Positions 3,271 to 60,949 of a stretch of DNA of 64,000 nt are shown here, piece after piece. The first letter of the stretch is position 1. The number at the start of each line of letters is the position of its first letter. Origin of the DNA: Actinernus sp. WN-2022 (Eukaryota; Cnidaria; Anthozoa; Actiniaria; Actinernidae); NCBI GenBank assembly GCA_030867875.1, contig JAOWCC010000019.1, forward strand, positions 107,016,047-107,080,046, written 5' to 3'. The notes beneath the pieces are model-generated. The model was given only the letters and a program-made list of their open reading frames with translations. It made no database searches and was not told the DNA's origin. The translations under genes and the position numbers were made by a program.

Positions 3271-3307
3271 CATACAAATGTTAGTAATATATTTCCACTT
3301 ACAGAGC

Positions 3308-24400: not shown

Positions 24401-27400
24401 CCAGTGCTTTGTCGTTCTCCTCTAATGCTCGCCTGAAGTAAAAAGCACCCAAGTTGTATTTATGCATCTGAAAGTGGATGCAGCCTAAGTTGTTGAAGTA
24501 CATTGTACTTATACATTCTCCTGTTTCTAGCATGTTATTACTAGACTTAGGTGCACTGTTCATTAGTTTGATTGATTTGCGGTAGTTCTGACGAAGGTAC
24601 TCGAAGTTGCTCTTCAAGAATAATCCACCTGTTGACTGTAAACAAGAGAAACATTTAAAACCATTGTCTACCCCAACAATACTTAACACAAATTTACAAT
24701 AATAATATGATTTACCACCATTTTCATTGTTAGCGATTATGTGAGATCAAAGTTGTGACGTTGGCACAATCTTATCCAACCAGCTTACAATAGTCGCTAT
24801 TACCATAATTCATATACCTACATGTACCTACATTGTACTATCTCACCTATGGAACAAACTACCTACAACCATCAAGAATGCCAACATAATTAAGGAATTT
24901 TGTTACCAACTAGAATCATTTGACTTTAGTAATTTCAAGTTCAGTTGCAAATGCAATCACTACCTTGTGTAACTTTGTTATAATATAACAGTTTCTGGGT
25001 TGTGTTAGGGCTAGGTCTAGTGCTGGTTAGCCTTGAATGGGTCGGGCAATTGAGCCTCTGGCTCAGATGTAAGGGTAACCTATCCCACATTTCGACATTA
25101 ATAAATGGTATTGTATTGTATTGTGTAGTTTAGATTAAATCTCTGTCAATCATACAAAGTGACAGGGGTAATGAACTGTGACAGCGGAACATGAACGGGG
25201 CGGCCTTCACCTCCTCGGAACGTGAATAGTACTGGCTATCCAAACAATGCCTAACCCTGAAACAATACAAACCCTAACCCTAAAACAATGCAATTCTTTG
25301 TCAGTGCAGTCCAACTGGGATCCAATAAAATGCAAGGTTTTGAGAGGTGAAGGGCTGCTGACATGAACAAGAATTCTCTCATCAAATCCTGTGTCTATTG
25401 TTTATTCTATTAGTTACCTTTTATTGTTTTATACTGTTACAAAATAGGATAAGCACAGAGTTCTGTTCAAGCCAATTCACTCTGTTATGTAAAACCTTGA
25501 GTTTTCACATTGAGTAGATTTTTAGACATCAAAATGTGTCTGGGCATTACAATGTAACTCTATTGTCTTTATGCCATTATCCAAGATGTTTGGGGTTAGC
25601 CACTTCCACTTTATGTGTTTGACAGAAACCAAGTTGCACCTTTGGTCCTGCACCATTATAATGCATAGCAATATGAAAATGGTGGTAACTGTAACATACT
25701 CTTAACTTTGCACCACTAAACTTAAAGGACTGGTATTGTTCAAATGATGCACTAACTGCACATTTCAAGGGCATTCCCACCAACAAAAAGTCATTGGTTT
25801 AAATAATAATAATAATAATAATAATAATAGTCTTTAATAATACTACACAACAGACGTGTGAGTTTAAATGTAATAATGATAAATATATAATAATCTAGAA
25901 TAGAACTATGTAAATAATAATTGCCACAAATATTCTGCTAATTATTTTTGTTATATAAATTGAAAAAGACATCTGTTAAAAAACGATCTTTTAAATCTTT
26001 CAGTGCTGACTTTGGGAAGAATAAACTGGTGCCCGCGCTCTTGAAGGATTCTCCCTCTCTTAGGTGGCAGGAGCTCATACAGGGCATGATTAGGATCATT
26101 AATGATTCTTTTCCACATCTTAGTGTCTCTGTCTCTAATTACATCAGATATAATTATGCTTTTAGTAGTATAGCCAAACCGAAACGTCCGTTTACAAAAC
26201 CTATCAATACGTTCAAGGTATTTGCTCTGATAAGCAGAGCCCCATACTTCAATACCATATAAAAATAAGGACATTATAAGAGAGTCAAATAGTTTGGTCA
26301 GTTGGTCCACAGAGTATCCATAATATTTACAAACTCTAAGAATGTACAGTCGGCTGTTAGCTTTACATAGTAGGTTATCTTTTATATGGAGGTCCCAGTT
26401 ACAGGGGTTGTCTTGAAATGTTACTCCAAGTAATTTCAACCAACTTTTCCTTTCAATTCCTGTTACGGGTGCCGGAAGAAGTTGGGGAGACTTTCCTCGT
26501 ACGACCATCTCCCAGGTCTTAGAGAGATTAAGAGTCATACGATTATTGGACGACCAGTTCTCAATGTTATTAACTTCTGCAGCAGAGGAGTCGTGGTTCT
26601 TTCCGACTGGCACCGTAAGAGTAATGTCATCCGCATATTTAATTAGCATATTGCTAGATGGATGAACTATTCTAATATCATTGACCATAAGGGAGAATAA
26701 CACTGGTCCTAACACCGTTCCTTGTGGGACACTCCATCAGTTACGACTCTTTGTTGTCTACCACTGAGAAAACTAATTATCCAGTTAATAATATACGGGT
26801 TAATGTCAATCTGTTTGAGTTTATCACGTACAATGTACTATATTATGAGTAACTGAATCAAAGGCCTTACTAAAATCAAAGGAGAAAACGCGAACAAAAT
26901 CAATAGACTGATTGTCGAGCAGCTTTAGCCATGTATGATAGCACTTAATAAGGGCCATAGTGGAATTGTGACCCTCTTTATATGCAAACTGGTCAGAACC
27001 TATTACCGATTTAAGAGTTTCATGTAAATATTTTCTGTATACTATTCTTTCGAAAAGTCTCATTATGATGTTAGTCAAAGAAATAGGTCTCAGCTGATTA
27101 CTGGAAATTAGAGGAGACTCTTTTGGAATAGGTGATACATTAGCAAGCTTCCAGAGGAAAGGTACTGTGAAGGTAATGTGAATACACTTACCAGGCTACA
27201 GTTGAGGACAGACTTGATCTCTCGTTTGCATGCCTTCATGGACTTTGTTAAGATGTTTAAGCGAGCCTTGTACTGTTAGGACAAAAAGAGGGTCCTTAAT
27301 AATAATAATTCAAAACATCAAGGCAATATACACTGTAAAAGATACCACCAACTACATTGTACCAAACCATTCCCTATCATAACCTTAACAATCTGAACAC

Positions 27401-30400
27401 AGCTTGTAAATTTACATGTCAATAAACTGGGCAAAAGACATACTCTGATTGGTCAATAGTCATGTTCTATTAGAGTACAGATAACATCATAAGGTCACAC
27501 ATGAGCTGGATTTTGTTGGGAAAGTTCACTGATTATTGTCCAACACAAATATATGTTATTTTGTCATGGGTCTGTTCTCTTCCGATGATGTCAAAATGTA
27601 AAAAGAACAGCAGTCCCACTATTGACTGGCTCTCATGGTGCACTTCTTTGTTCTCTTTGCTTTCATATGTCATGTCATATGTGCATATGGCAGGTGAATG
27701 GCAAAATGACATTATTTGTTAAATACACAGCGTCAGACCCATCCACCCAAGTTTACAAGTTTGAATAGTCAACACACAAGAAAAATAGTCAGATCCTGAT
27801 GATGTCACCTGATGAAGTTGTGCCTTATTAACGTCATCAATGTCCTTATGGATTTGCTGCTGGCCCTGCTGGTGATGACTTCCCTGTGAACTCTGCTTGA
27901 TGTTTGAAAGCAATATAGTATCAGTATATAATTGGTGTTTTATATTTTAATGCTGTTCCCATAGTACATGTATATATTGTAGCTCAACACTTGTAACCTA
28001 CCTCGTTTTGCTTTACGTAGGCCAGCATAGTGCTCTCGATGTGGTTCAAAATGGCTCCAGCTTTTTCAGGCTGTCAACAAACAACAACAAATAAGCTGTT
28101 AACCCACAAACTCTCAATTGCTTTTCTTTCTTAGCCTGAATTTCTAATGGAAGCCTGAAACAACCATAGGGGCTGATCAACATAAGGAGTTAGGACCTGG
28201 CTAAACTGACAGTCTGATCAAATTGGATTTTAGCGTGTTGGATTTTCAGGAGGGAGTAAACCCAGAGAAAAACCCTCAGAACGAGGACAAGATACTAACA
28301 TTTAACTCAACTCACATGTGGTACTGCATCTGGGAATCAAACCCGGGCCACAGAGGTGAGAGGCAAAGCACTTAACCACTGTGCCACCCTTCCATCTAGA
28401 AAAGATGGTTTCTAAATTAGTCACCCACTCACCTTGTATGTTATAAGATAGAGCTCAACCAACAGAAAGCACACTTTCAAAGCAAAACTGTCATCTAAAT
28501 AAGAGAAACAAGAATTCCATGTAATATACATAATTTATAGATAATATTTTCCTTGAAGGCTACGTCCGAGCCATTCAGGTTCATCAGTTCATATGAAATC
28601 ACTGAAAATAACTTCAAATATATAGAGGATAACTGCAAATATATAGAGGATATTACACGGTAGTGCGAAAATATGAAGTTTATCCTCGAGAGTCAAAAAC
28701 ATTTCACGAGTGAGAGCAGTGAGTGAGTGAAATGTTTTGAACTCAAGTATGCAGCTCATTTAAGCTGTTTGCATCTTCCTCTGTGATTTTCACGAACCAG
28801 CTGCTACTTTGTAGTTCATAAGGCGGCAAACGTAATGTGATTGACATTTTCACTAGTGAGGATATGGAAAATACACCACTCAATACCTGGATGTAGTTTC
28901 GTATGCATTCTATGAGTGGTTTATTTGTCAGTGAAACGCTGTCGTCCATATAATTGAAAGAACTCTTACTGTGACATGGACCCTTTAACTCTTTGTCGTC
29001 CGGCCCTGTAAAAAGGAGACTTTAAAGTCTCCGCACCTCAAAATTCACCCCACTTCCGGTTTTCATCAGAATTAATTAAAATAAACAGGGTAGTATCCCA
29101 GTATAATAAGCCAACCACTGATCCTGTTTGTTTGAATTTTCAACCATCCCCTCATGGAGAAAAGCCCATTTATTTTGGCGATTGTATCGTTTCTTCGATT
29201 TTCACGAATTTCGAGGAGCTGAAAATCGGCTCAAAAAAACATTCCCATTCGCACTTGAAATCAAGAGCAAACACAAAATAACCACTCAGTCGTTACAGTA
29301 CCTTGTTTAATCTTTCCAACCAGTAGGTTTGTTTTCACAAAACACACCAAACGACTGTGAACCACGCCGATGTTTACACTGCATTTCACTCGACCACATT
29401 GTCCTGCTCCCACCTCCAATTGCATGCTGGGTAATCACCAAAAAAATCACAAGGGGGACCCCCCTCTGGGAGGCCGGTAGGTTTTTTTTATAAGTCTTTT
29501 ACCCCTACAACCAAGAGCGGTGATTTGGAGTCAAGCCGTTGCTTTAAAGTGACAAAAACACATCCTACTAGGTTGAGCAGGGGTAAAAGAATGCCAACTG
29601 CAGGATTTCAAGGCTTTCATTGAAGAATTTGTTCCTGTGTCTGAAATCACAAACACAACGGAAAAACCCTGTGAAATCCCCTCACAAGGCCTACTAAAAG
29701 CAAACCAAGTACTTTTCAGCCATCCTCAGGCTTAATGATGTCTTCAAGCTCTCTGACAGTGGCATTTTTCTCCAAAATTAGAGCACATTTCATTGGAAAC
29801 CCTACCGAAGCAGCCATACCTACCGTCGACCAGTACGTAGAATTCTCCCGAATGGCATTGTGGGGCAAGTTTGAGCCCTTGGCTTAACAAGTCAGCAGTA
29901 TTTAATTAGCCCGGGCTAGCCAAACTGGAACTGAGGGGGGAGGGTTTAGTTAGCACTCAGGATTTCACCAATTGAGCTCACACACGATCGGACGACAAAG
30001 AGTTAAAGCACAATGATGTACATAATTATTCACTTACCTAATGGTTCTGTTATTTTGTACAACTTTCCTAGAGCAGTGATGGCAGCACTGTACTGTCGTG
30101 ACTAAAATTAAATAAAGTTCCTAATCTTAAAATCAACACACAAGCACATAATTATGTGGCAGAGTGGTTCTAATCACCTACAGTCGAATCCCTGCTATTT
30201 TGAAGTCCCAGGGGAATGATTTATTTTTTAAATAACCTGGTTAGCGTCAAATTGCAAATTGTTATTAATAATTAACAAGTTGGGTTGGTATTCCTTTTTG
30301 ATGAAATACAGTATGGAAAGACACTGATTTAGTTGTTAACGATGATTATACGTCAGATTACTCAGCACGTCCTCTTGCTTCGAAAAATGTTTCAATGTTC

Positions 30401-33400
30401 AGGCTGTTGTTTTTGGCCTTTTCTAATGCTTTTATCGACCATAAAAGACAGCTATTCTGTTGTTTGTCCATCAAAGTTGACAAGTTCGAAATAACAGGGT
30501 TGATTTTAGGCCTAGGGAAACAAGGATCAGTTTGAAATAGCGGGGAGTTTGAAATAACCGAGTTCGAAATAGCCGATAGTAAATGACTGAAAAAATAAGG
30601 GTAAATGTAAATCCAAGGGAATTCGGCCTGATTTTGAAATAACGGGGACTTCGAATTAACCGCGAGTTTGAAATAGCGGGGTTTGACTGTAGTTCCACGT
30701 TAAACAAAAGTCATGTACTTTATGTGTACTCTACATCCATCTTCCCTGGTAACATGTTGACATGATAACTGAATAATCTTATTGAGTTAGCATGCATGAC
30801 ACTCATTACCATATTTAACTGATCTAGTGAGGTTTGATTGGCTGGTACTCGACAGCACAATTAATGCAATACATAGTGTTTCCTACTGATCCTACTAATT
30901 TCTCTTTTCCTGTGTGCACTTTGCTATGCTCATTTACTCATCCAAAGAGAAATGAAATGTATTAGTCAGCTACATGTAAGCATCTAACACAGCTGTGTGT
31001 TTTTTGGGTCACTCCTATATCAGCAAGTCTGTAGGCAAGCCGAAATACAAATTTATGAAGAGAACGTGCTGAGAGACAAGGCCATTGGCTCTTACGTCCC
31101 TTACCCAAGAATGCAGCCTGGATTCAACCCACAACCTCCTGCTATATTGACTTTACCACCCGAGCTACAGTACCGCCTGGAACTATAGGTACATTTATCG
31201 CGAGCAAATCGCGATGAGATCGCGGTCAATGACCGCGGTCTGCTCGCACCTTGCTCGCGATCTGCTCGCACCTTGCTCGCGATCTGCTCGCACCTTGCTC
31301 GCGATCTGCTCGCACCTTGCTCGCGATCTGAACGCACCTTGCTCGCGATCTGCTCGCACCTTGCTCGCGATCTGAACGCACCTTGCTCGCGATCTGAACG
31401 CACCTTGCTCGCGATGTGACCGCGATCAACTGTGTTCGAGATGGAAATGATCGCAGTTACGTTCATCGGACATTAGATTTTACGTACACATTTACCCGAG
31501 CCCTTGCGAAACGTTTTACAATTTCTTCCCTTGACAAAAAAACGCATTAAGCAAAAACGTAAAGCTGATCAATATTACAATTTATATGAAGAAGTAATTG
31601 AGAGTAAACTGTCACTGGATTAAGAACGGATCATAAAAGTTGATGACCATTCCTACATGTATGTTTTGGTCGATCGAGGACGCATCACATATTTGAAAAC
31701 AAACACGAGCACTGAGACTTGTTTGCTTCACATCTGATATCAGACCAATCGCTGCAGACTGGTCTCACGGCAATTATAAACGGCAATGCCAATCACAAAC
31801 TGACGACGTGATGAAGTAAAAACGCTGAAATTGAAACTCCAGAAGATTCGGTGCGATCTCACGCCAAATTAACCAATAACGAATTAAAATATCCAAAATG
31901 TATTCACCTGGGTGTTTTTATTTGACAGAATGGACTCAAACCAGTTTTCGCATTAGGTGAAAACTGTTCAGATCGTAAATAAAATACAAACTTTCAAAGC
32001 ATTTGATTCGGTAGGAAGATAATTTTAGTGTGATCTCAAAGCAAAACAAACACTGCTGTCGGAGCTCATTGATTATTCAAAAATGTCACACTTCTGCTCG
32101 AGCAATTTGAGACTCGGACCTCATCGCCTTTCAATTCAAAATGACGGATCCCACATTAAATAAAAAGAATTCCAGAATATTCTATTTGGTAGACGTTTAT
32201 CACTTGCCAGTATTAAAAGTTGAGAAACTTTCCCGCATTATTTAACTCTGCATTCTGCAATAAAATCACATGTCCCGCGAAGTTCGCGGCATTCTTGTTG
32301 TGTCAAAAACCAGACAACAGTTTCCACGGCTGAAAGCACATGTAAACACCGAAAAGCTGGCTTCTTGAATCTGTTGAATTGAAAACATACAGCGTACGCA
32401 ACGACTTTTAAAGAATCGTGAAGGGATTGACGGATATATTAAAGTATGAAAGTACAGAAGTCTGTAAAGTTTATCAGATGAATAAAAACACCGAACTAAC
32501 GATCGGATGGTATTTTAAGTACATAACGCGAACCCACGCAACCTTTCTTTTGGTGACCCTTCGATATTTATATTTCTAACGGGACTTGAAACAACCATGT
32601 ATGTGGCTGATCAAAGTAATAATCTACAGATCGAATTGGAATTTAGCTTGTTGGTTTTTGTGGAGGGAGGAAAACCAGAGGACCTCGGAACAAGGGCGAG
32701 ATTACAACAAACTGAACTCACATGTGGCGCCGCGTACGATAGAATATTTTGGCTAACCATCAGAGAGTTGGTCAAGACCATCCGTTCGAATGTTTTGATG
32801 AACCATTAGATAGTCAAGACCACCAAGGAACATTCGTTGCGGATTTGAAGACTGTAGCTTCAAAAGCTTCATTTTAAAATTGCTACTATGATGTACGTAA
32901 TGGCGTGATCGAGACACCCTGCCGCTTCAGCCGCTTGGCCGGATTTTTGCCGTTCATCGTATGATCTATGATAACCTCTCTATCTCGAATTAATACTTGT
33001 TCCCCTGCATTGGGTTTAGGATCCTGGATTTACACTCTTTCACTAATAAAAAGTTTAGCCCGTGTTCAAGTGGAACGTACACGTAAATTTTATAGACCCA
33101 AGAGGTTTGTGGAAATGTTCATAAGCAGGCATTTTGTTTCCAGGCTGTAGACTGCGACTGATGATCGCGATCATCATAGTGATCGCAGTCAGATCGCGAG
33201 CAAAGTGCGAGCAGATCGCGAGCAAGGTGCGAGCAGATCGCGAGCAAGGTGCGAGCAGAACGCGAGCAAGGTGCGAGCAAGGTGCGAGCAGATCGCGGTC
33301 AGTACACGCAATTTGATCGCGACTCGATCGCGATCAAATGTACCTATAGTTCCAGGCGGTACTGTATTTGGCCATGTGTCAACCCTAAATGAAGGGGTGT

Positions 33401-36400
33401 GTGCAAAAAGGGCGTATGTCTTTCCTGATCAGATTCTAAATTCTCCTTTAATTTCTTTGTTTTCTAAGGGATCATTTAGAATGTGATCAAGAGTCACTTA
33501 CACCCTTTTTGCACACAGCCCTTCAAATATTATTGGAAAGTCAGTAAGCTAAGTGAGAAAATTGTCAACTCTCATGGACTCTCATTCCCAATTTGAATAC
33601 ATGTCACATAAAATTATTAATCAGGGCTCGTCGCCAGTGCAACAAAAACATTTTGTTTGGTGACTAAAACTTACCATTAATTTTAGTCACTAACTCATCT
33701 AGTTAACAATTACTGGCTAGTGACTACATTTTATTTGCTGGTCGTCTCTGACTGGCAAGCGTGGACTAAGAATTTTGTTTAACTTCCAGGCCTGTTAATG
33801 AGAGTATGGTGACCACCTGAATGTTTGCTCTTATTTGATAAAACAAAATATGATTGTGTACTTTACTTACATGGTAACATACAGTAGCTTCATTGTAGAG
33901 CACATATACCATGTCTAGGTTATCATCTTCATTATCACCAATTTCATTGGCAATCTAATAAAAAATATGATTTGGAAATATTTAAATCCTCCAGTGGGTT
34001 AACAGGTATTGGGTATACAGGAAAGGGGTAGATGGTATGAGATAGTTACAGGATATGCTATTTTAGGTACAGTACATAATGGACCTCATGCTTGTTTAAT
34101 AAGAGGTATATATACTATTACTTGGTCTATAACTTACAGTATGGACCTCGTGCTTGTTTAATATGAGGTACTTGGTCTATAACTTACAGTGTGGACATGA
34201 CATGCTTGTTTTAATAAGAGGTATATGTGACCACACATGGGAAAACGTACCTTCGCGTGAAAAACAAACGGCCTAAAAAGTCGTTCAGAGACCGTTCGGT
34301 GTCCATTCGAACGTTTTGAAACCATTCGAACGTTTACGAAGCCGTTTGGATTTTTTCCTAGCCCGTTTAAACAATCCACTCAATCCGTTCGAACATATCA
34401 CGTGGCCGTTCGAATGCCACAAACAACCGTTCGAACGCCACAAGAAATCTGTTTGAAAGCCACAAGCAATCTGTTTGCATGATGAACACTACAAGCAATC
34501 CGTTCAAACGCTACAAGCAATCCGTTCGAACGATGCACTCAACCATTTGAACAATGTACAGCCGTTCAAATACTCAATCGAAGCCTCTGGAGCTTTCACG
34601 AAGGCTAATTAAGAAATAACCCAAATCGCTCAAGATTTTGTTAGAACTACGCGTTTTAAATAAGTTGTTTTATACTGCGATCTCATGGCAATCGATTCAA
34701 TGAAAGCATTTTACTCATGCAGGTGGAAACTATTCAATTAAGTAAAATAAAAACCCTCCAAAACATTTGCTTTAGCACTTACATGTATTAATTTTGAATT
34801 TCTAAAATTTCAAAGCAAACATTACTCTAGAAGCTAATTGTATGCAAATCAGTTGACGGTATAAAACTTCACACTTCAATTGGCAATTCGACATACTGAT
34901 CTATTCGTCTTCGGTTTGAAATGAATAAAAATAACTCCGAACATTATAATATATATTTGGTAAACATTTCACTGTTTAGAGTAAGTTGAGAATCTGTTTG
35001 GTGTATGTATAAAAATAAAGTCAGAATTCCGGGAAATCGTCACACGTCCGTGCACCATAGTGTTGTTGTGTCAAGAACTAGACAAGCATGGAATGCAGAC
35101 ACGCGAACTGATGTTGACTAAAACTACACACGAGTGAACACGAGTGAACACGAGTGAAAAAGATGGTAAAACAGGTGAACACGAGTGAAAAAGATGGTAA
35201 AACAGGTGAACACAAGTGAAAATGTATTGAAACTATATTTTTCTTTGTTTTAAATAATTGAAACTATAGTAAACCAGCCAAATGATGGTTAGGGAGGGAC
35301 CATTTGAAAATTGTTTTTTTTGGGGGGGGGGGGAGGGGGGGGAGGGGGGGGGGGAGGGGGGTACCGCCAAAAAAAAAACACCAGCAAGCCAAAATCATCT
35401 AGAAAAAAAAATTGAGCAAGGGTGAAACTTTGTTCATTAGCTGAATACTGAATGCCTTTAAAAAATCGTACACACATTATTGCAATTACAATGCATTAAA
35501 TTGTGCCAGAAAGTGCAGGAAAATGTGCATCCAAGAACCTGAAATTCAGAATGTTCCGGGGGAGCATGCCCCTGACTCACTAGAAACTCGGTAGTAATAG
35601 TAGTAGTGACTTTATTTTAAGACACAATGTTACGTCCTTATCCGAGAAGATGTGAAGGTCTAACTGTTTACTGTTGGATTATGTAAAGGCAGCACCTTGA
35701 GTGTTGGTCCGGCAGGGGTTTGAACCCGCTACCTTCCGCTCGACAGACCGGAACTTAACTACCGAGCTAACCGGAAGGCGGTCCGAGCTGGGCATCAGAT
35801 GTAGCTGCTTTCTGTTCTTGGTCACTTATTCAAATGAACACTCTTGAACTGGACAAGAAAGGAAAGGCTGATTCAACGGTAGAGCAGAGTTTTTCTTCCA
35901 ATATTTCGATCGGCCGTGGGGAAAGAGGCTTACAATGTATCTAATAAACTAGAACCTTTACAAAATAAAGTGCTGTCTTGTGAGAAATCTCTCATTAGTA
36001 AATTTGGAACTGACTGCAAAAATTAGTAAAATTTAAATCGTGCAGAGGCGCGAAAAAAAATTCTGCACCGATTGGGCAGAAACAATAAATTCTTGCAAGG
36101 TAAAAATGTCAACCCCCTTCCCCCCTTTATTTTTCTAACGGTCCGGCCTGAAAAGATGGGTTATCGCTAAAATTAATCTAAACTTATTGACTTAGTTGAC
36201 AGCTTGTCACCTACTTTGATGTTTGAGGTAATTAAATCCTACTTTGTGGTTTCCAAACTGTCAACATGCATCATATGTCATTATCAGATGCCTCTCAGAC
36301 AGGCATCCGGTTTTCTCTAGGCTCTATAGTTTGGCTGGTTTACTATAGTTTCAATTATTTAAAACAAAGAAAAATATAGTTTCAAAAATTTTTCACTCGT

Positions 36401-38501
36401 GTTCACCTTTATTTCACTAGTGTTCACCTGCTTTACCATCGTGTTCGCTCGTGTTCGCTCGTGTTCGCTCGTGCTCGCTCGTGTTCGCTCGTGTTCGCTC
36501 GTGTTCGCTCGTGTTCGCTCGTGTTCGCTCGTGTGTAGTTTTAGTCAACATCCACGTGAACTTAGTAATTTGTCACGTTTGAGGAGTTTGACCAATGAGA
36601 GGAAAGCAGTCTCACGATCATTAGTATGCAAACAACGAGCTAAAACGTGATATCGTAGATCATCTAAATTGTGTTTAGCCATTCATTCTTTCAGCGATCG
36701 TTATTAATTTTGTTCATTGCCCATTTATTTGGCCATTCGAAAGCATTTTCACACAGCCGTCGAATGTTCAATCTAAGTCTTTTGAATTAGAGATTTCACG
36801 AAGACTACCCGATTCAAAATACAGAGTATACATTGTTTACAACTGACTCAAAGCATTTTCGAATAAAGGGTGAAAGTGCTCACGATAAGTAAACAAAACA
36901 CCCCAAAAACAGCAAACTTTACTCAGTATGGAGCTAAAATTAATGTAATGAATCAGTTCGCTGCTTCACACTTCAATCCTGCGCCGCCACTGAATTCAAC
37001 CATGTCGTTCATTCTCTCTTACATTTCTCTTTTATACAATATTTCTCGTTACGGTAAATGTACTCAAAGTTCGAAGGAATTCAAAGCCTTTGTTAAAGTT
37101 TGGTAGAATTCATACCGTTCGGTAGTCATGTAAACATTAATGCGAAAGCGTTTGAATGCTTATGTTGAACTCTTCGAACATTAATTTAGGGCAAGTCGTT
37201 CGAACGTTTAGGACAAGTCGTTCGAACATTTAGGGCAAGTTGTTCGCCTGACCGTTCAAATGGATTGCCCTGAACGTCCGAACGGTCAGGGCAAGTTGTT
37301 CGAGTTTTAAATCAGGCCGTTTGAATGCTTACATCAAGCCGTTCGAACGCCTGCAGGAAATCGTTTGAAAATTTAGCGTGCCCGTTCGATTTTTTTACTG
37401 ACCATTCGAACGCTTTGAGAAACCGTTCGAACGATTTTTTAAAGCGTTCGTTGGCCGTTCGTTGTCTGTTTATTTTCCGGTGCGTGGTCACATAATTATA
37501 CTGTTGGCTAAAGTGAACAATCTGCACCATAAGAAAGTGGTGGGTAAGTGGTGGGAAAGTGGTTGGAAAGTGGTCAGTAAGTGGTTGGTAACTGGTCGGT
37601 AAGTGGTGGGTAAGCTGTTGACTCGATCGCTACGTGTTTGCATTTTCTTCACTGGACCAAAATACCATTTAAGAACACTTAATACCTTCTTACAATCTTA
37701 GTCTTAGTGTGGTTTTTCAACGTTCTGGGAACAATATATATACTGTTCTTCACGATCGATCACAAACGTTAACCCGACACCATTTTGTTTTGACCGCATG
37801 GCATCACTGGTTACCAGTCCTCGCATTTACAAAAGCGAAAATAAAAATAAAATGGTGGCAGCCTGTGAAACTTAACAGTCATGTCAAGTCGTTGGATATT
37901 AGGACTTGGAACTTGGACTTCAACGTTCAAAACCTGAAAGAAACTTAAATGAAAGCAATCCTGAAGTAGTCTGGTCAGGCGGCATGTCTTCCTGAACTTC
38001 AAAGGCCACTGGATTGTTTAATACATGTACTTTTGAGGAAAACATCAACTTTATTGTCAAACTATTTGGACAACCACTTACCGACCACTTTTTTTACGGT
38101 GCAGATTGTTCACTTTAGCCAAACTGTTACTTGGTCTATAACTTACAGTATGGACATCATGCTTGTTTAATAAACAACCTGAAATGAAAAAAACAACCTA
38201 CAACATATACATGTACTGTTACCTGCTTCTTAATGGCAAGTAAGTTCTTAAAGAACTCATCTGTTTTAGTGAATCCTGATTGGTAGAACAGTGTCACTGT
38301 CTTGTTATGTACCACCTTATGATCATAGGGGCGCATCTCGCCTAGACAGTGTAAAGCCGCCAGGCTCTTATCGTACTGTTGACCCTCAAATTCCACCTGG
38401 GCATGGTTGGCAAGTTCGCGCTCCTGATCTGTCACTCTGCCACTGGGTGGAGGAAGATCTGACAGAATTTCCAAGCTACCCTCAAGTGTTGGTTCTGTCA
38501 T
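6314..38501 (-). CDS. CNOT10: CNOT10, CCR4-NOT complex subunit 10 (17 coding exons, whole gene span)
   Basis: CNOT10 is a helical TPR-repeat protein that, with CNOT11, forms a module on the N-terminal part of the CNOT1 scaffold of the cytoplasmic CCR4-NOT mRNA deadenylase (family knowledge). Seen here: 17 exons joined by GT-AG sites with consistent phases, 2136 bases, 711 residues, close to the roughly 740 of vertebrate CNOT10. Conserved blocks in order include [60 protein letters not shown] and [11 protein letters not shown]. No stop or frameshift interrupts the joined exons. The start is the ATG at 38501; TTTTGTAG just before it could be a 3' splice site for an untranslated first exon. The last 20 or so residues differ from the vertebrate C-terminus. 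Introns are filled with mobile elements. Identification is from recognised similarity; no alignment was run. Confidence 0.95.
6424..7721. other. CNOT10 intron 16, unassigned part
   Basis: No domain-bearing frame. An unremarkable AT-rich intron. Confidence 0.5.
7722..7884. mobile_element. 163-base palindromic MITE, copy 1
   Basis: Nearly the whole element is one inverted repeat: GTAATCATACGGTTTCGAG at the left and its inverse at 7866-7884, with AGTGCAATTTGGG and a CTTTGAAAAAC word further in. A second copy lies at 43132-43307. It would fold into a single hairpin. Confidence 0.85.
7885..8841. other. CNOT10 intron 16, unassigned
   Basis: No gene recognised. GAGCCCATCTGGGCTTTCACTC at 8622-8643 is a short palindrome. 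Confidence 0.4.
8842..10075 (-). pseudogene. unrecognised coding-like region inside CNOT10 intron 16
   Basis: Several minus-strand frames with balanced composition follow one another: 10070-9843 (includes [18 protein letters not shown] and [20 protein letters not shown]), then [20 protein letters not shown] near 9835-9770, [14 protein letters not shown] near 9740-9700, and 9496-9293 and 9192-8842, which are Gln/Asn/Thr-rich. The frames are separated by stops or frameshifts. The product is not recognised. It could be a decayed ORF of a DNA transposon, or exons of an unknown intron-nested gene. Confidence 0.35.
10225..10395. repeat. inverted AATAAGAATAAG repeat and small GC hairpin
   Basis: CTCGGTGCTGCCACAGG...GCAGCCCGAG near 10221-10246 forms a small hairpin. 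It is followed by AT-rich TAAGAATAAGAATATG words in both orientations, a probable small MITE. Confidence 0.4.
10482..10557 (-). CDS. CNOT10: CNOT10 coding exon 16
   Basis: 76 bases encoding [14 protein letters not shown], the counterpart of AILLAVYLELQNG. Acceptor TTTACAG, donor CTG|GTAAGT, phase 1 into exon 17. Confidence 0.9.
10665..11047. mobile_element. hAT-like MITE with 8-bp target duplication
   Basis: Flanked by CACAGGGG on both sides (10657-10664 and 11048-11055). Ends CCCGGGGGGT and its inverse. It contains repeated words ACAGGGTATGG and AACAGGGTA. Eight-base duplications are typical of hAT elements. Confidence 0.75.
11146..11562. mobile_element. hAT-like MITE, same family, opposite orientation
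   Basis: Flanked by AGAAAAAC (11138-11145 and 11563-11570). Read on the minus strand it shares GGGGTACTCCC, GGACTATACGGG and CACACCCCTACCCAA with the element at 10665-11047, and repeats the word CTATCCCAGAC. Confidence 0.7.
12072..12353. mobile_element. mariner-like MITE, TA duplication
   Basis: Ends CCGTAAAGACC and GGTCTTTACAG with TA on both sides. ATATAAGCCACACCCC and GGTGCAGCTTTTACA lie just inside. It is related in end sequence to 4481-4996. Located in CNOT10 intron 15. Confidence 0.75.
12742..12863 (-). CDS. CNOT10: CNOT10 coding exon 15
   Basis: 122 bases encoding [20 protein letters not shown] and CLHQ, a TPR helix pair. Acceptor ATTTTCAG, donor CAA|GTAAGT. Phase 0. Confidence 0.94.
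13617..13744 (-). CDS. CNOT10: CNOT10 coding exon 14
   Basis: 128 bases encoding [20 protein letters not shown] and MHLSPENV, matching [27 protein letters not shown]. Acceptor CTCTACAG, donor GGAG|GTAGGT. Confidence 0.94.
13801..13922. mobile_element. 122-base palindromic MITE, 4-bp duplication, copy 1
   Basis: Ends GAAGGACTGTGTGCAAAAAG and its inverse, flanked by ATTA on both sides. The body is a near-continuous inverted repeat. A second copy is at 33391-33524. Confidence 0.8.
13940..14498. mobile_element. fragments: piece of a TTAA element and one mariner-like end
   Basis: 13995-14095 resembles the interior of the TTAA element near 29505-29600 (CCTACAAC...AGAG.GGTGATTTG). 14465-14498 ends GTGCGGCTTATACACGGGT followed by AAATACGGTAA, like the right end of the mariner-like MITEs, without a matching left end. 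Confidence 0.4.
14499..15504. mobile_element. TTAA-type (piggyBac-like) non-autonomous element, copy B
   Basis: The right end is next to TTAA at 15505-15508; the left flank is decayed (GTAA). The interior matches 28989-30002 in reverse orientation (for example TTTCACGAATTTTGAGGAGC on its minus strand). The open frame at 14663-14863 resembles no transposase. It lies in CNOT10 intron 13. Confidence 0.7.
15536..16565 (+). pseudogene. 5'-truncated LINE, RT thumb to C-terminus
   Basis: The open frame gives [58 protein letters not shown] and THRYDTRSK, the post-catalytic part of a LINE RT. After a stop and frameshift at 16165 it continues YGKFNVNF and VKVWNDLP, ending near 16300. The 3' tail has CCTTTGAA repeats at 16553-16571. 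The catalytic YADD-type motif is lost by truncation. Antisense to CNOT10, in intron 13. Confidence 0.85.
16581..17530. mobile_element. CAGGGCTCGAAATT element with TAGGCGTAA arms, 5-bp duplication
   Basis: Ends CAGGGCTCGAAATT and AATTTCGAGCCCTG, flanked by CTTGA on both sides (16576-16580, 17531-17535). Near each end the word GGCGTAA recurs (GGAGGCGTAATTTTACGCC, TAGGCGTAA). The centre is a near-perfect palindrome (16986-17352). No coding region is convincing. Confidence 0.8.
16986..17352. repeat. large near-perfect inverted repeat within the CAGGGCTCGA element
   Basis: Two arms of about 143 bases (16986-17128 and 17209-17352) are reverse complements with few mismatches, for example GTCAAAGTTTGACAGCTCCT against AGGAGCTGTCAAACTTTGAC, around an 80-base spacer that contains a direct TTTTGCATGACAAAA repeat. 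Confidence 0.85.
17949..18062 (-). CDS. CNOT10: CNOT10 coding exon 13
   Basis: 114 bases encoding [20 protein letters not shown] and HAQRLL, a well conserved TPR. Acceptor TTTTTCAG, donor GAA|GTGAGT. Confidence 0.94.
18835..18936 (-). CDS. CNOT10: CNOT10 coding exon 12
   Basis: 102 bases encoding a Ser-rich linker and [18 protein letters not shown], the counterpart of vertebrate IPAPPSSPLRKQELENL. Acceptor CTTCAAG, donor AAG|GTAAAT. Confidence 0.9.
19026..19445. mobile_element. remnant of the 47165-49285 TTAA element family
   Basis: Shares AACGGGTTCG.GTAATGGC and TCAAGATTCGGA with 49120-49165, and GAGAGTTT.CC.T with ATCACGTCC near 47300. Shorter and without clear ends. In CNOT10 intron 11. 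Confidence 0.55.
19471..19578. mobile_element. palindromic MITE
   Basis: Arms GTGAATAGTGGTGGATATTT and its inverse (19494-19514, 19533-19554) extend outward to ACAATTATTCACC and GGTAAATAATTGT. The whole segment folds as one hairpin. Confidence 0.75.
19580..19763. mobile_element. MITE with GTATATACCACAC ends
   Basis: GTATATACCACACTGCAGGT at the left is inverted at 19738-19763 (CACTGGTGTGGTATATAC). The GTGAATA word recurs inside, linking it to the adjacent palindrome. Confidence 0.6.
20105..20284 (-). CDS. CNOT10: CNOT10 coding exon 11
   Basis: 180 bases including [16 protein letters not shown], then an acidic linker (DEDDVEMEN). Acceptor TTTTCAG, donor AAG|GTAAG. Confidence 0.93.
21014..21132 (-). 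CDS. CNOT10: CNOT10 coding exon 10
   Basis: 119 bases including [17 protein letters not shown], matching IVQSIVGQGYHRKIVL in vertebrates. Acceptor CCAACAG, donor TTGA|GTAAGC, ending in phase 2. Confidence 0.92.
21318..22170. repeat. CCTACCAACA minisatellite, intron 9 of CNOT10
   Basis: About 850 bases of variants of an 11-base unit such as CTACCAACACC, ACCTACCATCA and CCTACCGACAG, in mixed order. The apparent open frame at 21299-21562 is a product of the repeat. It starts 58 bases from the exon 9 donor. Confidence 0.9.
22228..22430 (-). CDS. CNOT10: CNOT10 coding exon 9
   Basis: 203 bases encoding [19 protein letters not shown] and [18 protein letters not shown]. Acceptor CTCTACAG, donor ATG|GTAAGA. 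A minisatellite begins within 65 bases of the donor. Confidence 0.95.
22600..22738 (+). mobile_element. LINE or SINE 3' end with (ATT)n tail
   Basis: GACTCCCTGGATAAAGATTG followed by TTATTATT repeats, typical of a short-tandem-tailed retroelement 3' end. No coding part is present. Confidence 0.5.
22739..22922 (-). mobile_element. tRNA-derived SINE (family 2)
   Basis: The minus strand reads GGTTAGCTCAGTTGGTAGAG (A box) and GGTTCGTATCCC (B box), followed by a non-tRNA body and ending at the ATT-rich tract. The B-box spacing fits an RNA polymerase III head. In CNOT10 intron 8. Confidence 0.75.
22923..24376. other. CNOT10 intron 8, unassigned
   Basis: No recognised gene or clear repeat. Confidence 0.4.
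24377..24635 (-). CDS. CNOT10: CNOT10 coding exon 8
   Basis: The longest internal exon (259 bases). It encodes [20 protein letters not shown] and [20 protein letters not shown], two of the most conserved TPR segments of the family. Acceptor TTTACAG, donor AAGA|GTAAGG, ending in phase 1. Confidence 0.95.
24830..25125 (+). pseudogene. LINE 3' terminal fragment with (TATTG)n tail
   Basis: Translation gives [14 protein letters not shown], then a stop 30 codons on, followed by a non-coding region and TATTGTATTGTATTG. WNKLP is the usual C-terminal LINE motif. Confidence 0.65.
25799..27180 (-). pseudogene. LINE RT pseudogene in CNOT10 intron 7
   Basis: Fragments in order on the minus strand: [46 protein letters not shown] (finger and motif A), [24 protein letters not shown] (motif B), then an open frame of 254 residues with the catalytic IKYADDITL and the thumb region. 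At least two frameshifts (near 26830 and 26715-26720). 5'-truncated, with a (TTA)n tail at 25799-25830. Same strand as CNOT10. Confidence 0.9.
27192..27272 (-). CDS. CNOT10: CNOT10 coding exon 7
   Basis: 27 codons with the strongly conserved [12 protein letters not shown] block. Acceptor CTAACAG, donor CTG|GTAAGT. A LINE fragment starts only about 10 bases past the donor. Confidence 0.93.
27809..27892 (-). CDS. CNOT10: CNOT10 coding exon 6
   Basis: 28 codons of low-complexity, Gln/His-rich linker ([13 protein letters not shown]) ending in QLHQ. It sits where vertebrate CNOT10 has its Asn-rich loop. Acceptor AAGCAG, donor CAG|GTGACA. Weakest in similarity, but the phase and the flanking exons support it. 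Confidence 0.8.
28002..28070 (-). CDS. CNOT10: CNOT10 coding exon 5
   Basis: 23 codons beginning [12 protein letters not shown], the second helix of the TPR started in exon 4. Acceptor TTGACAG, donor GAG|GTAGGT. Phase 0. Confidence 0.9.
28147..28393 (-). mobile_element. tRNA-derived SINE (family 1)
   Basis: A box GGCACAGTGGTTAAGTG and B box GGTTTGATTCCC on the minus strand, then the family body GTTTTTCTCTGGGTTTACTC and the tail region. Similar along its length to 57680-57922. In CNOT10 intron 4. Confidence 0.85.
28433..28494 (-). CDS. CNOT10: CNOT10 coding exon 4
   Basis: 62 bases encoding [20 protein letters not shown] and a lysine, matching the AVCFLLVDLYILTY helix of vertebrates. Acceptor TTATTTAG, donor AAG|GTGAGT. 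Confidence 0.92.
28540..28980. other. part of CNOT10 intron 3, unassigned
   Basis: CTTCAAATATATAGAGGATAA is repeated in tandem near 28610-28650, and AAAACATTTCACGAGTGAG...GTGAGTGAAATGTTTT (28695-28737) is a small inverted repeat. Confidence 0.4.
28989..30002. mobile_element. TTAA-type (piggyBac-like) non-autonomous element, copy A
   Basis: TTAA at 28985-28988 and 30003-30006; ends CTCTTTGTCGTCCGGCC and its inverse. Length 1014 bases. No transposase frame. Same family as 14499-15504 in the opposite orientation. In CNOT10 intron 3. Confidence 0.8.
30038..30101 (-). CDS. CNOT10: CNOT10 coding exon 3
   Basis: 64 bases encoding [20 protein letters not shown], a TPR helix. Acceptor TTTTAG, donor TTAG|GTAAGT. 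Ends in phase 1. Confidence 0.92.
30181..30689. mobile_element. pogo/Tigger-like MITE, TA duplication
   Basis: Ends CAGTCGAATCCCTGCTATTT and its inverse AAATAGCGGGGTTTGACTG, flanked by TA. The word GTTTGAAATAGCGGGG and variants (TTCGAAATAACAGGG, TTTGAAATAACGGGG) repeats about seven times in the right half. The CAGTCGAA...TATTT.GAA end is known from pogo-class elements. Confidence 0.75.
31015..31166 (-). mobile_element. tRNA-derived SINE (family 3), interrupted at its head
   Basis: The minus strand reads TAGCTCGGGTGGTAAAG (A box) and GGTTGAATCC (B box). The first bases of the head are separated by the 31168-33364 insertion. Confidence 0.6.
31168..33364. mobile_element. 2.2 kb foldback element, GCGAGCAAGGTGCGAGCA arms, TA duplication
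   Basis: Ends CAGTACCGCCTGGAACTATA and its inverse, flanked by TA (31166-31167, 33365-33366). The left arm (31200-31430) has eight tandem 22-base units CACCTTGCTCGCGATCTGCT; the right arm (33185-33300) has about five. The central core 31905-32400 matches the elements at 34226 and 40434. A partial family-1 SINE sits at 32577-32740. The open frames in the arms are repeat artefacts; no transposase was seen. In CNOT10 intron 2. Confidence 0.85.
32577..32740 (-). mobile_element. tRNA-derived SINE family 1, head-truncated
   Basis: Carries ACTTGAAACAACCATGT..GGCTGATCAAAG and GGAGGGAGGAAAACCAGAG as in other copies, but lacks the A and B boxes past 32735. Nested within the foldback element core. Confidence 0.7.
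33391..33524. mobile_element. palindromic MITE, 4-bp duplication, copy 2
   Basis: Ends GAAGGGGTGTGTGCAAAAAG and its inverse, flanked by AAAT on both sides. Homologous to 13801-13922. Confidence 0.8.
33627..33785. mobile_element. one end of a CAGGGCTCG-type element
   Basis: Begins CAGGGCTCGTCGCCAGT and carries the recurring word TAGTGACTA / TTAGTCACTAA, similar in layout to 16581-17530 and 42144-42718. The opposite end is not clear. Confidence 0.45.
33871..33954 (-). CDS. CNOT10: CNOT10 coding exon 2
   Basis: 28 codons giving the acidic stretch [18 protein letters not shown], matching the conserved block before the LRQYTEAI-like helix in animal CNOT10. Acceptor TTATTAG, donor CAT|GTAAGT. Phase 0 on both sides. 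Confidence 0.92.
34070..34225. repeat. minisatellite with ACTTGGTCTATAACTTACAG unit
   Basis: Three units of 50-60 bases carrying CATGCTTGTTTAATAAGAGG and CTTGGTCTATAACTTACAG. The array continues at 38127-38170, so the 34226-38126 insertions split it. Confidence 0.75.
35322..35362. repeat. poly(G) tract
   Basis: About 40 bases of G interrupted by single A or T, then GGTACC. It may be prone to sequencing error and to forming G-quadruplexes. Confidence 0.8.
35586..35790 (-). mobile_element. tRNA-derived SINE
   Basis: The minus strand reads CCGGTTAGCTCGGTAGTTAA (A box) and GCGGGTTCAAACCCC (B box), then a non-tRNA body ending AAATAAAGTCACTACTAC with an (ACT)n tail. Nested in the foldback element. 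Confidence 0.75.
37501..38126. mobile_element. foldback MITE with AAGTGGTNGGT arms
   Basis: Ends CTGTTGGCTAAAGTGAACAA and its near inverse TTGTTCACTTTAGCCAAACT. The left arm repeats AAGTGGT(T/G)GG(T/A) about nine times; the right has two copies reversed. It lies directly next to the 34226-37492 element. Confidence 0.75.
38223..38501 (-). CDS. CNOT10: CNOT10 coding exon 1
   Basis: Encodes the N-terminal 93 residues, beginning [13 protein letters not shown], with the family-typical TDQERELAN segment. The donor reads CAG|GTAACA at 38221-38222. Phase 0. A LINE tail ends 56 bases upstream of the start codon. Confidence 0.93.
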
Positions 38502-38557
38502 TCTAGTGCAGTCTACAAAACAACAAATCTCATTTTATTATATTGAATCATACTGTG

Positions 38558-40330
38558 ACAACAACAACAACAACAACAACTTTATTTGTACTCTCTACTC
38601 TCCTAATATAACAAAATTACTAGTATGTGGTTTGAACGAAGAAGAGCACAGCTACTTAGATATAGCAAGAGCTAATCGAGCTAAGTAGCTGGGCCATACA
38701 GGAATAATTGCTACAGTAGTTGCTCATAAATTGGACGGAGATAAAAAACGAAAAAGAACAATACTAATACACACAAAGCTTATCAATAATAAACATACAT
38801 GTACCAAAAAAAGCATTATACATACACAAAAATGGAAGTGGGCATAAGTTTAAGTACATCAGTATATCAGTCTATTAAGTAATTATTTAAAATAGAATCT
38901 GTTACGAGCCTCTTAAAACAGCCGCGACTTTTAGATTTGAAGGCTTCTTGTATTGAATTCCACACTTTAACACCTAAAAAACGAATATTAAATTTGCCAT
39001 AATTAGTCCTTATTTTTGGAAGATAATATGATTTTTTGCAGGCTAGTCTGGTGTTATATCGATGTACTCTGTTTATGCATTTAAAGAAGTCATTAAAGGT
39101 TGGTGGAAGTCTGTTTGCATGGAAGTCATACATAAATAAAGAGTTGTTTACATGGATCAAATCAGTAAATTTAAGTAGCCCTAGCCTGTGGAAGAGCGGA
39201 CTTGAGTGAGCTTGATAATCAGAAAAAGTTATAATTCTAACTGCTTTTTTTTGTAAAATAATGAGGGGCTTTAGTGTAGTTGAGTAAGTATTTCCCCAAG
39301 TTACTAAAGCATAAGTTAAAAAAGGATAGATTAAAGTGTAATATAGTTGAGTAAGAACTGGAGCACTTACAAAATGCCGAATTTTTGAGAGTATACCAAC
39401 ACAGCGTTTGATTTTCTTAGAGATGTGCAAGATATGAAATTTCCAACTGAGATGTGAATCAATAAGAACTCCAAGGTATTTGATGCATTTTTCCTGTTTA
39501 ATCTCTTTGTCATTAATATATAGTCTGGTTGCATAATTTGCAGCTTTTTGAGGAGGGTGAAATATAATGAAGTTAGTTTTGTCAATATTTAAAGAGAGTT
39601 TATTTGCAGCAAGCCAGTCAGAAACATGGCTTAAATTTTCATTAATAAGGGATTCTAGTGCAAGCAAACTATTATTTGAACAGAATAGGTTGGTATCATC
39701 TGCAAAAATGTGAAAATTAAACAAGTTACAACAGTTACTGAAATCATTAATGTACAGGAGAAATAGAAGAGGGCCTAACACTGAACCATGCGGGACACCA
39801 TGAGTAATAATAAGGTCATCAGATTTAACACTACCAATATTTACATGTTGCTTTCTATTTTGTAAATACGAGACAAACCAATCATTTGCAATCCCACGTA
39901 TTCCATAGTGACTTAATTTCCTAATCAGTATACTATGATCTACAGTGTCAAAAGCTTTTGAAAAGTCTAGGAAGATCCCGCATGAGTATAGGCCATCTTC
40001 TATTGCTCCCTGTATTTTATCAGTGATTAAAAGAGTTGCATGCATGGTAGAATGATTTTCACGAAAGCCAAATTGCTTATCATATAGAATATTGTGTTTA
40101 TCAATAAAAGTGATTAATCTTTTGAACATTAGCTTTTCCAAAATTTTATTAAAGATAGAGAGTAAAGAAATAGGTCGATAGTTATTCATGCATGTAACTG
40201 AGTCTTTTTTATGAACTGGGATGACATTAGCTAATTTGAAATGGTCTGGTACACAGCCACTACTGAAAGAGAGATTATAAATTATTTCTAACACATTTAT
40301 GCATAAAGCTTGCAATTAGATCTAATGTGC
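38558..40330 (-). mobile_element. LINE retrotransposon, 5'-truncated, long RT frame
   Basis: The open frame 40315-38867 gives 482 residues: FKLANVIPVHKKD, NNYRPISLL, KQFGFRENHST, GIFLDFSKAFDTVDH (motif A), GVPHGSVLGPLLF (motif B; the family norm is VPQG), HIFADDTNLF (catalytic FADD), KYLGVLID, YPFLTYALVTWG, HRYNTR, RTNYGKFNIR and VKVWNSI. The endonuclease ORF is absent (stop just upstream). The 3' UTR ends CAAATAAAG then (TTG)n at 38558-38580. Same strand as CNOT10, 56 bases upstream of its ATG. Confidence 0.92.
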
Positions 40331-40433
40331 CTCAGTACCTAAGGGTAATAAATACACCACCTATTTTATTATTTAATTTTATTGAATTTGCCACATAAAT
40401 AATAATAATAATAATTACAGAGAAAAAGAAATA

Positions 40434-41841
40434 CACTACTGACAGAAAGTAATGAAAGCGAATTTCGCCGAAATTCGCTCTTTGTTATATTCGAAATTTC
40501 GTACGAATGTTCGGAGATATTTCGATACGCAAGAAACGAATTTACCTCGAAATTTCGCACAGCATTTCGAAGTTTCGAAGTAAAATTCAAATGGTTCGAA
40601 AATTCGTATTGAAATTTCGAATAACTCCGCTCGAAATTTCTTAGTGGAACTGTACAATTCGCTGCGATATGGTAAACGTGTAAACAAAGCAAAATCAACG
40701 CAAATACAAGAGTGCCGTGGACTCAAACCATTTTTCGCACTAGGTGGAAACTGTTCAGATACGCAAATGAAGTAAAAACTTTCAAAACGTTTCATTCTGT
40801 AAGCATCTCGATTTCTAAAAGAAAATTTAATCTGTAGAGAATATTTGGTGCGATCTCAAAGCAAAACAAACACTGCGGATCGAGTCATTAATTATTCAAA
40901 TCAGTTCACGGAAATTGTCACACTTCTGTGTCACGGAATTCAAGACCTCGTTACCTTTGAAAACGGATCCACATTAAATAAAAAGAACTCCAGAATGTTA
41001 TGTTTAGTAGACGTTATCATTTGCAAGCAAAGTTCAGAAGCTTTGTGGTGATTTAAACTACAATGCAATAAAATCACACTTCCCGCTAAGTTCGCGGCAC
41101 TCTTGACGTCTTGTTGTTTGAAAAACCAGACAGTTTAGTCTCCACGGCTCAAAGCACATCCTTCTATCTCCAAAAAGCTGGCTTCTTCAAAACATACACA
41201 ATTACTTCAACAAAAATTCTGAAGGATTGTCAGATCTGAGTTGAAACTACAGAAGCTAAAGTTTATCAGATGAGCTAAAAAACACCAAACCAGCGCTGGG
41301 ACGGACTGTTTCGTTACGCAATCCTGTATTTTGGTGACAGAATGCACAAATGTCAATATCACCATTAGAACGTTTTTAGTTTTTTAATAGTCCTTCGTGA
41401 AAGCTCCAGAGGCTTTGATTGAGTAACAGATTGAGTGCATCGTTCGAACGGATTGCTTGAAAAGTTCGAACAGTTTGAAAAGTTCGCTGGAGTTCGCTGG
41501 AATTCGATTGCTCGTTACTGAGATGTATTATTCACTTAACATGTAACTCACGGAAAGTTTGGTTATCAGATGTACATTTAAGGCTGCCTTTATCGTTAAT
41601 GAGCAATGAGGATTGCGAAGTTTCACATCTTGCTGTACAATCGATTCGAAAATTCAATCCATCGTAATTTCGATTCAACATTTCGAATCGAAATTTCGCT
41701 CGAAATTTCGCCATAATGTTCGAAAGAGTGGAACGAAATTTCGAAGTTAAAGACAAAAGGCAACTCTTAAACTTCGAAGTATTTCTTCGAAATTCGATGA
41801 ATTTCGAAGAAATTCGCTTTCATAACTTTCTGTCAGTAGTG
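40434..41841. mobile_element. 1.4 kb foldback element, TTCGAAATTTCG arms, TA duplication
   Basis: Ends CACTACTGACAGAAAGT and its inverse, flanked by TA (40432-40433, 41842-41843). Arms are dense in GAAATTTCGAA words. The core 40712-41230 is clearly homologous to 31905-32400. Inside the right arm, 41391-41480 carries AAGCTCCAGAGGCTT and CGTTCGAACGGATTGCTTG, the inverse of the left arm of 34226-37492. No transposase seen. Confidence 0.85.
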
Positions 41842-41844
41842 TAG

Positions 41845-57300: not shown

Positions 57301-57679
57301 GGTGGAGACACCGTCCACGCCGGGCACGAATAACCGTAAAAACGGCGGGGTTGAGTGTAACAGAAAACGTAAAAATAACGCCATTTCCTTACTACTTCTC
57401 TAAATTTGACGAAATGTTGGCAGGTTGGTAACAAAGTAAGACTACTTTTCGGGACAGTTGTTTCTGTATTCTGACGTTGTTGTGACGTAATAAGGGATGC
57501 CTCCTTTTTTGTGAAAAATACACCTTTAAAACACGTTTAAAAAATATTACGTCATCAGAAAACCTTTATGAAATATATTCATTTGGCGAAAATTTGAACT
57601 TTCTACAATAAATATATTCAATGTTATGAACGATTTACTGTCATTATTATACACTCTGAACACTCTGAATTTCTGACGA
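54319..57679. other. no gene seen
   Basis: Unassigned sequence. ATGTGCCAACCA and TGGTTGGCACAT at 55390-55466 are inverted. An (AGT)n and ATTTT-rich stretch at 56576-56625 looks like a retroelement tail on the minus strand. No frame with a recognisable domain. Confidence 0.4.
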
Positions 57680-57922
57680 GACCTGAAACCACCATGGGGG
57701 CTGATCAAAGCCAGGTCCGGCTAATCCACAGATCGAATTGGAATTTAACGTGTTGGTTAGTTTTGCGGAGGGAGGAAAACCGGAGAACTCGGAGAAAACG
57801 CTCGGAGCAAGGGCGAGATACCAACAAACTCAACTCACATATGGCGCCGCGTCCGGCAATCGAACCTGGGCTGCAGAGGTGAGAGGCGAAGCGCTTAACC
57901 ACTGCGCCACCCCGGCTCCCCA
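57680..57922 (-). mobile_element. tRNA-derived SINE family 1, best copy
   Basis: The minus strand begins GGGAGCCGGGGTGGCGCAGT (A box within GGCGCAGTGGTTAAG), then the B box GGTTCGATTGCC, a body with TTTTCCTCCCTCCGC and a tail with TGGTGGTTTCAGG. About 243 bases; the most complete of four copies in this window. Confidence 0.88.
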
Positions 57923-60937: not shown

Positions 60938-60949
60938 TAAGTGCTAAAG

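Follow-up and report, generated by a model that had tools for sequence, protein, structure and literature searches.

Foldback elements at the locus

The window analyzed here, the whole 64,000-nucleotide stretch of the Actinernus sp. WN-2022 genome on contig JAOWCC010000019.1 (positions 107,016,047 to 107,080,046), contains three complete TA-flanked foldback elements on its forward strand: E1 at 31168..33364, E2 at 34226..37492 and E3 at 40434..41841. Each has long inverted arms of short tandem units, TA on both sides and inverted tips, which bears out a sequence-only reading of the window that had described three foldbacks with TA duplications and distinct ends. The three also share an interior core, and the analyses below concern the relation of that core to the ends that surround it.

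E1 (2.2 kb) begins as TA plus CAGTACCGCC, with TA at 31166-31167 and 33365-33366, and its tips are inverted-identical over 29 of 29 terminal bases. The left tip and arm (31168..31430) are built of a 22-bp unit with an 11-bp half, GCGAGCAAGGT on the other strand; the right arm and tip occupy 33156..33364. Between them lies an extended core at 31797..32557, whose coordinates were transferred by eye from the E1 consensus and enclose the 31905-32400 interval of the sequence-only reading. To the right of the core, at about 32584..32732, is a scrap of a short interspersed element (SINE), tRNA-type by eye, which was matched in 26 of the 28 E1 loci read and is missing from the match list only in L023 and L027. 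The interval 32572-32738, considered as part of the core, proved to be this scrap; SINE copies, again tRNA-type by eye, lie at 11052-11701, 28101-28390 and 57665-57925.

E2 begins as TA plus TGTGACCAC, with TA at 34224-34225 and 37493-37494, and its tips agree in 11 of 14 bases. The left tip and arm (34226..34590) consist of CGTTCGAACG units about 22 bp apart, a core copy follows at 34617..35109, and the right arm and tip lie at 37140..37492. A second, partial core-like stretch at 36850..36912 was equaled by 0 of 500 shuffles, with a z score of only 2.4 under looser scoring. The element sits in a 50-bp tandem repeat that supplies a paralogous empty site: when the flanks are rejoined without E2 and the foldback at 37504-38122, they resemble by eye the unbroken repeat copy at 34095-34140, so E2 is a true insertion. 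Another foldback, with CACGAGTGAA arms, is nested at 35110..36552, where it splits E2 without belonging to it; its flanks, CACGCGAACT and CACGTGAACT, resemble by eye an imperfect 10-bp duplication, unlike those of the TA elements. The foldback at 37504-38122 has the terminal inverted repeat (TIR) TTGGCTAAAGTGAACAATCTGCACC, arms of the 11-bp unit AAGTGGTGGGT and ACTG on both sides, and its arm matches an 11-bp array at 21325-22158.

E3 begins as TA plus CACTACTGACAG, with TA at 40432-40433 and 41842-41843, and its tips agree in 40 of 43 bases. Its left tip and arm (GAAATTTCGAA) occupy 40434..40640, its core 40718..41352 and its right arm and tip 41650..41841; members of this multi-copy family mostly measure 1.35-1.47 kb.

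Open reading frame (ORF) pieces at 38157-38534 and 24348-24746, both on the minus strand, match CCR4-NOT subunit 10, and such exons on either side would place E1 and E2 between exons of a CNOT10 gene. A 482-amino-acid ORF at 38867-40315 (minus strand) is presumably a non-long-terminal-repeat reverse transcriptase, judged by an FADDT motif. The window is rich in inverted-repeat elements, which also occur at 1180-1645, 16981-17353 and 59278-62005, the first with 21-bp and the last with 13-bp tandem units.

One core within several kinds of ends

The cores of the three elements are collinear and in the same orientation. E1 31931-32510 and E3 40718-41304 are 68.6% identical over 633 columns (263 bits), and E1 matches E2 34703-35085 at 61% over 409 columns; against 200 dinucleotide shuffles each, z scores were 34.8 (E1/E3), 9.3 (E1/E2) and 8.6 (E2/E3). 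The earlier description of alignable cores, weaker in E2, is thereby confirmed, and better copies extend the core leftward to about E1 31797.

We searched one genome (G000; 1.39 Gb, 1772 contigs) with each core. Of 1658 first-look candidates for the E1 core, 40 were scored (94-100%), and 28 loci were taken from the scored list, one being the window copy and one element being represented twice (L005 and L016). With the E3 core, 40 of 2259 candidates were scored (88-100%) and all 40 were read, the window copy included. The E2 core gave 245 candidates and more diverse hits; 40 were scored and seven stretches read. Because the loci sampled for E1 and E3 are those that scored best against each core, they favor one family and do not reveal the frequency of other pairings. 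One core 21-mer has 695 exact copies in the genome; pattern scans of two other collections (viral_contigs and genome_contigs) for relatives returned 0 matches.

Every one of the 28 E1 loci carries E1 tips (at both ends in 24, at one end within the stretch in 4) and keeps the E1 interior; 24 aligned rows diverge from their consensus by 2.2-10.3%. E3 arms were matched in 40/40 loci, and both exact 12-base tips with TA occur in 26 of the first 30 (the TA being included in the search string). The E3 alignment, restricted to copies with exact tips and 1350-1520 bp, has 23 rows, the window copy twice among them, that are 98.3% alike without gaps. Two pairs of loci, L057/L058 and L044/L050, have mirrored flanks, and each pair looks like one locus assembled twice. 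At L056 1058-3254, one E3 copy is itself enclosed by a foldback-like inverted repeat pair (TACATACGAGTAACATACG), so foldback inside foldback occurs in this genome.

Among the stretches read with the E2 core, L070, L071, L073 and L075 carry E2 arms, L071 being a complete copy of 1.9 kb, and L076 holds a core piece with no recognized arm. A core copy with a AAAGTAAACGC-type left arm (L072/L074) was not counted as a separate family because the two stretches seem to be a single segmental duplication and showed no right arm. Within the E2 copy at L075 330-1221, the arm and part of the core are duplicated in tandem (88%), so arm-core units can multiply within one element.

Two further families emerged. 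L075 runs into a second element, E2b, whose remainder lies in L077. Its TGTGACC tips are akin to the E2 tips, its arms are built of CCGTTAGAACG units, and its core is reversed and carries deletions; another copy, L078, holds the full core. A query spanning the E2b arm-core junction gave 961 candidates, and all 39 other copies among the 40 scored cross the junction at 88-92%, which establishes E2b as a family. E3b, found in L069 beside an E3 element and complete in L079, joins E3-like tips (0/500 shuffles as good) and arms of CGAAATTTCGG type to an E2b-like core. It too is a multi-copy family: its junction query gave 701 candidates, and of the 40 scored, which include the query's own place, 28 match it over its full length and 3 more cross the junction in part (31 crossing). 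The other nine are confined to the core part of the query (133-261; 129 bases, 94-96%), all begin at one and the same base, and two of them are E2b places. L069 also contains E1b (1584-4099), which has E1-like tips CAGTACAGCCTGGATG, other arms (GTGTAATTACACG), internal repeats and a 51-nt core scrap at 92%. At C1312:127.84 Mb, C685:52.76 Mb and C635:94.66 Mb, an E2 core hit and an E2b hit are about 1-11 kb apart.

Judged by their tips, the five families form three unrelated end classes: E2/E2b, E1 and E3/E3b. Within classes the tips align, with 0 of 500 shuffles as good for E1/E1b and E3/E3b and 0 to 3 for six E2/E2b pairs; between classes, 19 to 497 of 500 shuffles were as good in 20 pairs. 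E2 and E2b arms likewise align (0/500). The TA target-site duplication of Tc1/mariner elements is found in E1, E2, E3 and E3b: exact tips searched without TA are adjoined by it in 41/44 cases for E1 and 70/72 for E3, and TA stands on both sides of E2 (window and L071) and of E3b (L079). Tc1/mariner tips typically start with CAGT, and on this feature the families are divided: the tips of E1 (CAGTACC) and E3b (CAGTGCTG) start so, that of E3 (CACTACTG) comes near, and the TGTGACC of E2/E2b does not.

The core is about 760 bp long in E1, E2b and E3b and shorter in E2 and E3. That of E2b L078 is 91.0% identical to the E3b core over 778 columns in L069 and 90.6% over 779 columns in L079; it matches the E3 consensus at 81% over 714 columns, the E1 consensus (366-1119) at 70.5% over 793 and the window E2 at 62% over 432, and the E3 core matches the E1 consensus at 68.8% over 673 columns. 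Outside the core, nothing matched between E2b L078 and E3b L079 at E 1e-4. Nearly the same core therefore lies within unrelated ends, and the proposal that termini had been replaced while the interior was kept stands: the ends have been replaced around a kept interior.

The left limit of the core, GTTTGGATG, is common to E2b and E3b, adjoining the arm in E3b and separated from it in E2b by a spacer without clear repeats. On the right, the E2b/E3b alignment runs as far as CCTGTCTT; both elements resume beyond a short gap with GCACAAATGT, after which the arms differ (this last step by eye), and the same limit is visible by eye in E3. A block that recurs in five families with similar outer limits could be a separate mobile element inserted independently into each foldback family. 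We consider this quite unlikely, because the core lacks a terminal inverted repeat (292/1000 shuffles as good), no direct repeat is visible in its 12-base flanks in E3b, and in E1 and E3 it is accompanied by attached E2b-type arm units, described below.

Matching positions of the E1 and E3 cores are grouped in islands, with a variance of matches in 30-base windows above all 2000 permutations, and the pattern may reflect constraint, though indel alignment can contribute to it. These cores differ by 31% with gaps and 23% without; as this exceeds divergence within families, the core is older than its carriers. The E2b tip TGTGACCTCACAGGAAAACGTACACT (L077 1000-1025, reverse) resembles a well-conserved core island, TGTGATCTCAAAGCAAAACAAACACT (E1 consensus 593-618), at 20-21 of 26 bases (0/3000 shuffles), and two E2 tips tested likewise do not match; by this resemblance the island is possibly an old buried tip, or a product of chance. 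A coding remnant was rejected as the nature of the core: E1/E3 gap lengths are a multiple of three in only 4 of 20 cases, and mismatches are spread across codon phases (35/191, 49/192, 49/190). Eight ORFs of E1, E2 and E3 gave no Pfam match above the curated cut-off. A known RNA was rejected as well, with no Rfam match in the window at gathering scores.

Arm relics beside the core and the change of ends

Pieces of other families' arms lie between the core and the present arms in both E1 and E3. Right of the E1 core, 32732..32821 is an E2b-type arm relic of about 90 bases (90 columns, about 75%; 0/500 shuffles as good), and a probe for it is present in 27 of the 28 loci. In E3, an E2b-type arm unit at 41354..41376 abuts the core on the right; its family consensus, CAAGATCACCGTTAGAACGTTTT, agrees with the E2b arm at 23 of 24 aligned positions (0/500 shuffles), two bases are changed in the window copy, and a 60-bp probe around the unit is present in 38/40 E3 loci. 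Against the same E2b arm, the control comparisons gave 500/500 shuffles as good for the E1 arm and 420/500 for the E3 arm. Next in E3 comes an E2-type left arm relic in inverted orientation (41380..41477, minus strand; E 2e-14 against the window), for which a 131-bp probe is present in 39/40 E3 loci and in L070, L071, L073 and L075. Outward from the core the order is thus E2b-type unit, inverted E2-type arm, spacer and E3 arm, which reads like successive layers with the outermost newest. Across 64 comparisons of arms with interiors, 11, the relics among them, were equaled by no more than 6 of 300 shuffles, where about 1 such result is expected.

These scraps favor enclosure over copy-by-copy exchange of arms. 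On balance we think it probable that the core passed from the TGTGACC class (E2/E2b) to the other classes by enclosure of an E2b-like element, with loss of that element's own arms. Such an element would have inserted in, or become trapped between, the arms of another family; its own repetitive arms would then have been deleted, and the composite would have amplified under its new outer tips, each family presumably being moved through those tips by a Tc1/mariner-type transposase. We infer the order of events (E2b-type arms first), the nested insertion with arm loss and the Tc1/mariner spread. The change of ends looks like the founding event of each family. Arms called exchangeable in the sequence-only reading are so in the sense that one core pairs with several arm types; no family swapping arms from copy to copy was seen among the loci read. 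The same reading had allowed that the cores might be later insertions of another repeat with its own ends. The remains of other families' arms beside the core in E1 and E3 agree with this in part; against it, no old-family tip was found there apart from the tip-like island of the core, the core has no TIR, and E1 and E3 copies keep the same composite interior.

The main rival, a process that has been proposed for chimeric Galileo copies, is an exchange of arms between two elements of different families through ectopic recombination or gene conversion, here with exchange points near both core-arm boundaries; we regard it as possible, though on the unlikely side. It is strongest for E3b, where E3-type arms flank an E2b-type core and no relic lies between. 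The palindrome TTCGAA, common to E2-type and E3-type arms, is a possible exchange point, and the published account of Galileo describes copies in which two TIRs of one subfamily surround the middle of another (PMC3573991). However, neither tips nor arms align between the classes, so the long homology for such an exchange is missing, and the arm pieces of two other types that E3 carries in series are not what two simple exchange points yield.

Several observations weigh against enclosure. E3b, in which core and new arms meet without any relic, is explained just as well by a direct swap of arms. The 42 bases that separate the E1 core from the SINE scrap do not match the E2b arm (417/500), the left spacers of E1 and E3 show no clear remains when compared with E2b and E2, and in eight tip tests each no old-family tip was found between the new arms of E1 and E3, the sole significant hit lying inside the core itself. 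No new-family element without a core was found among those read, except E1b with its core scrap. Neither of the two E2b copies read has a clean TA duplication, and no transposase was found among the eight ORFs tested (the genome as a whole was not searched for an autonomous partner). Weak hits also run in the opposite direction: the E1 left arm matched the E2 interior (equaled by 1 and by 4 of 300 shuffles), and the E3 left arm (3/300) and the E2 right arm (1/300) matched the E1 core. Finally, E1 arms compared with the E2-type relic in E3 beat all 300 shuffles, and on this similarity the arms may share some remote ancestry. The earlier statement that ends and motifs are unrelated accordingly holds for the three tip classes and has to be softened for these arms.

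Carried to its limit, shared ancestry would make all the elements one old family whose repetitive arms and tips drifted fast until they seemed unrelated. All arms do consist of short units 10-22 bp apart with CG-centered motifs, and besides the E1 match to the relic, E2 and E2b arms align; yet the cores of E2b and E3b are 91% identical while the rest is unmatched and the tips unalignable, and the other families' arm units in E1 and E3 are separate pieces beside the core. We consider drift of this kind highly improbable.

Retention of the core is compatible both with a neutral passenger and with a beneficial cis-acting sequence. A bolder and rather doubtful version is that the core is a cis-acting module serving the complexes of several transposases: enclosing elements would amplify better, the module would outlast the loss of each transposase by acquiring new ends from outside, and old arms would remain inside as dated layers.

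Comparison with known systems

Nonautonomous transposons are classified mainly by their ends, which are taken as heritable, with variable interiors; here an interior is common to three end classes, and annotation by ends would split the core lineage into unrelated families. The sequence of end changes may be recorded in the arm pieces within E3. Together these elements make it testable, in one genome, how nonautonomous elements switch transposases and whether internal sequence helps transposition. In one open library, on which any statement of novelty rests, we found no matching literature on exchange or capture of termini.

P-superfamily elements make target duplications of 8 bp. Galileo, a Drosophila member of that superfamily, has long, internally repetitive arms, chimeric copies and 7-bp duplications (PMC3573991). 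The elements described here resemble it in their long repetitive arms and in the pattern of TIRs of one subfamily around the interior of another. They differ in that Galileo chimeras arise between subfamilies of one transposon, whereas here the end classes are unrelated, the duplication is TA rather than 7 bp, and the composites are multi-copy families.

A second precedent is the V domain in MER6, a conserved domain that moved from a SINE into a Tc1/mariner miniature inverted-repeat transposable element (MITE) (PMC6887750). There the donor was a SINE; here donor and recipients are all foldbacks, in five families of one genome.

A smaller-scale likeness is to the CMITE elements of the corals Acropora millepora and A. 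palmata. These form six families that differ in their TIRs, and their interior is better conserved between families than the TIRs are (PMC2872659). MITEs are usually under 500 bp (PMC2872659), a size that E1, E3 and L071 exceed. CMITE elements measure about 100 bp, with an interior of 75 bp, TIRs of 13-14 bp in which the piggyBac motif CC[C/T]T is retained, and TTAA duplications; the origin of the interior is described as unknown, and the authors left open whether it aids transposition (PMC2872659). They also report a new element, CMITE-IN, created by CMITE insertion (PMC2872659). The sequence-only reading had set the present elements against the usual MITE pattern of conserved ends: the arrangement is indeed rare, and CMITE is a precedent for it. 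Neither TTAA duplications nor CC[C/T]T tips occur in the elements studied here, and a CMITE 60-mer gave no meaningful match to the window (best E 1.3). The portions of the CMITE, Galileo and MER6 accounts consulted describe no case in which one family's arms persist within those of another. The likeness to CMITE thus lies in an interior conserved between families whose TIRs are not, and in composite founding, for which CMITE-IN is a precedent; the difference lies in a core of up to about 760 bp, arms of hundreds of base pairs, TA duplications, unrelated tip classes and the foreign arm pieces inside.

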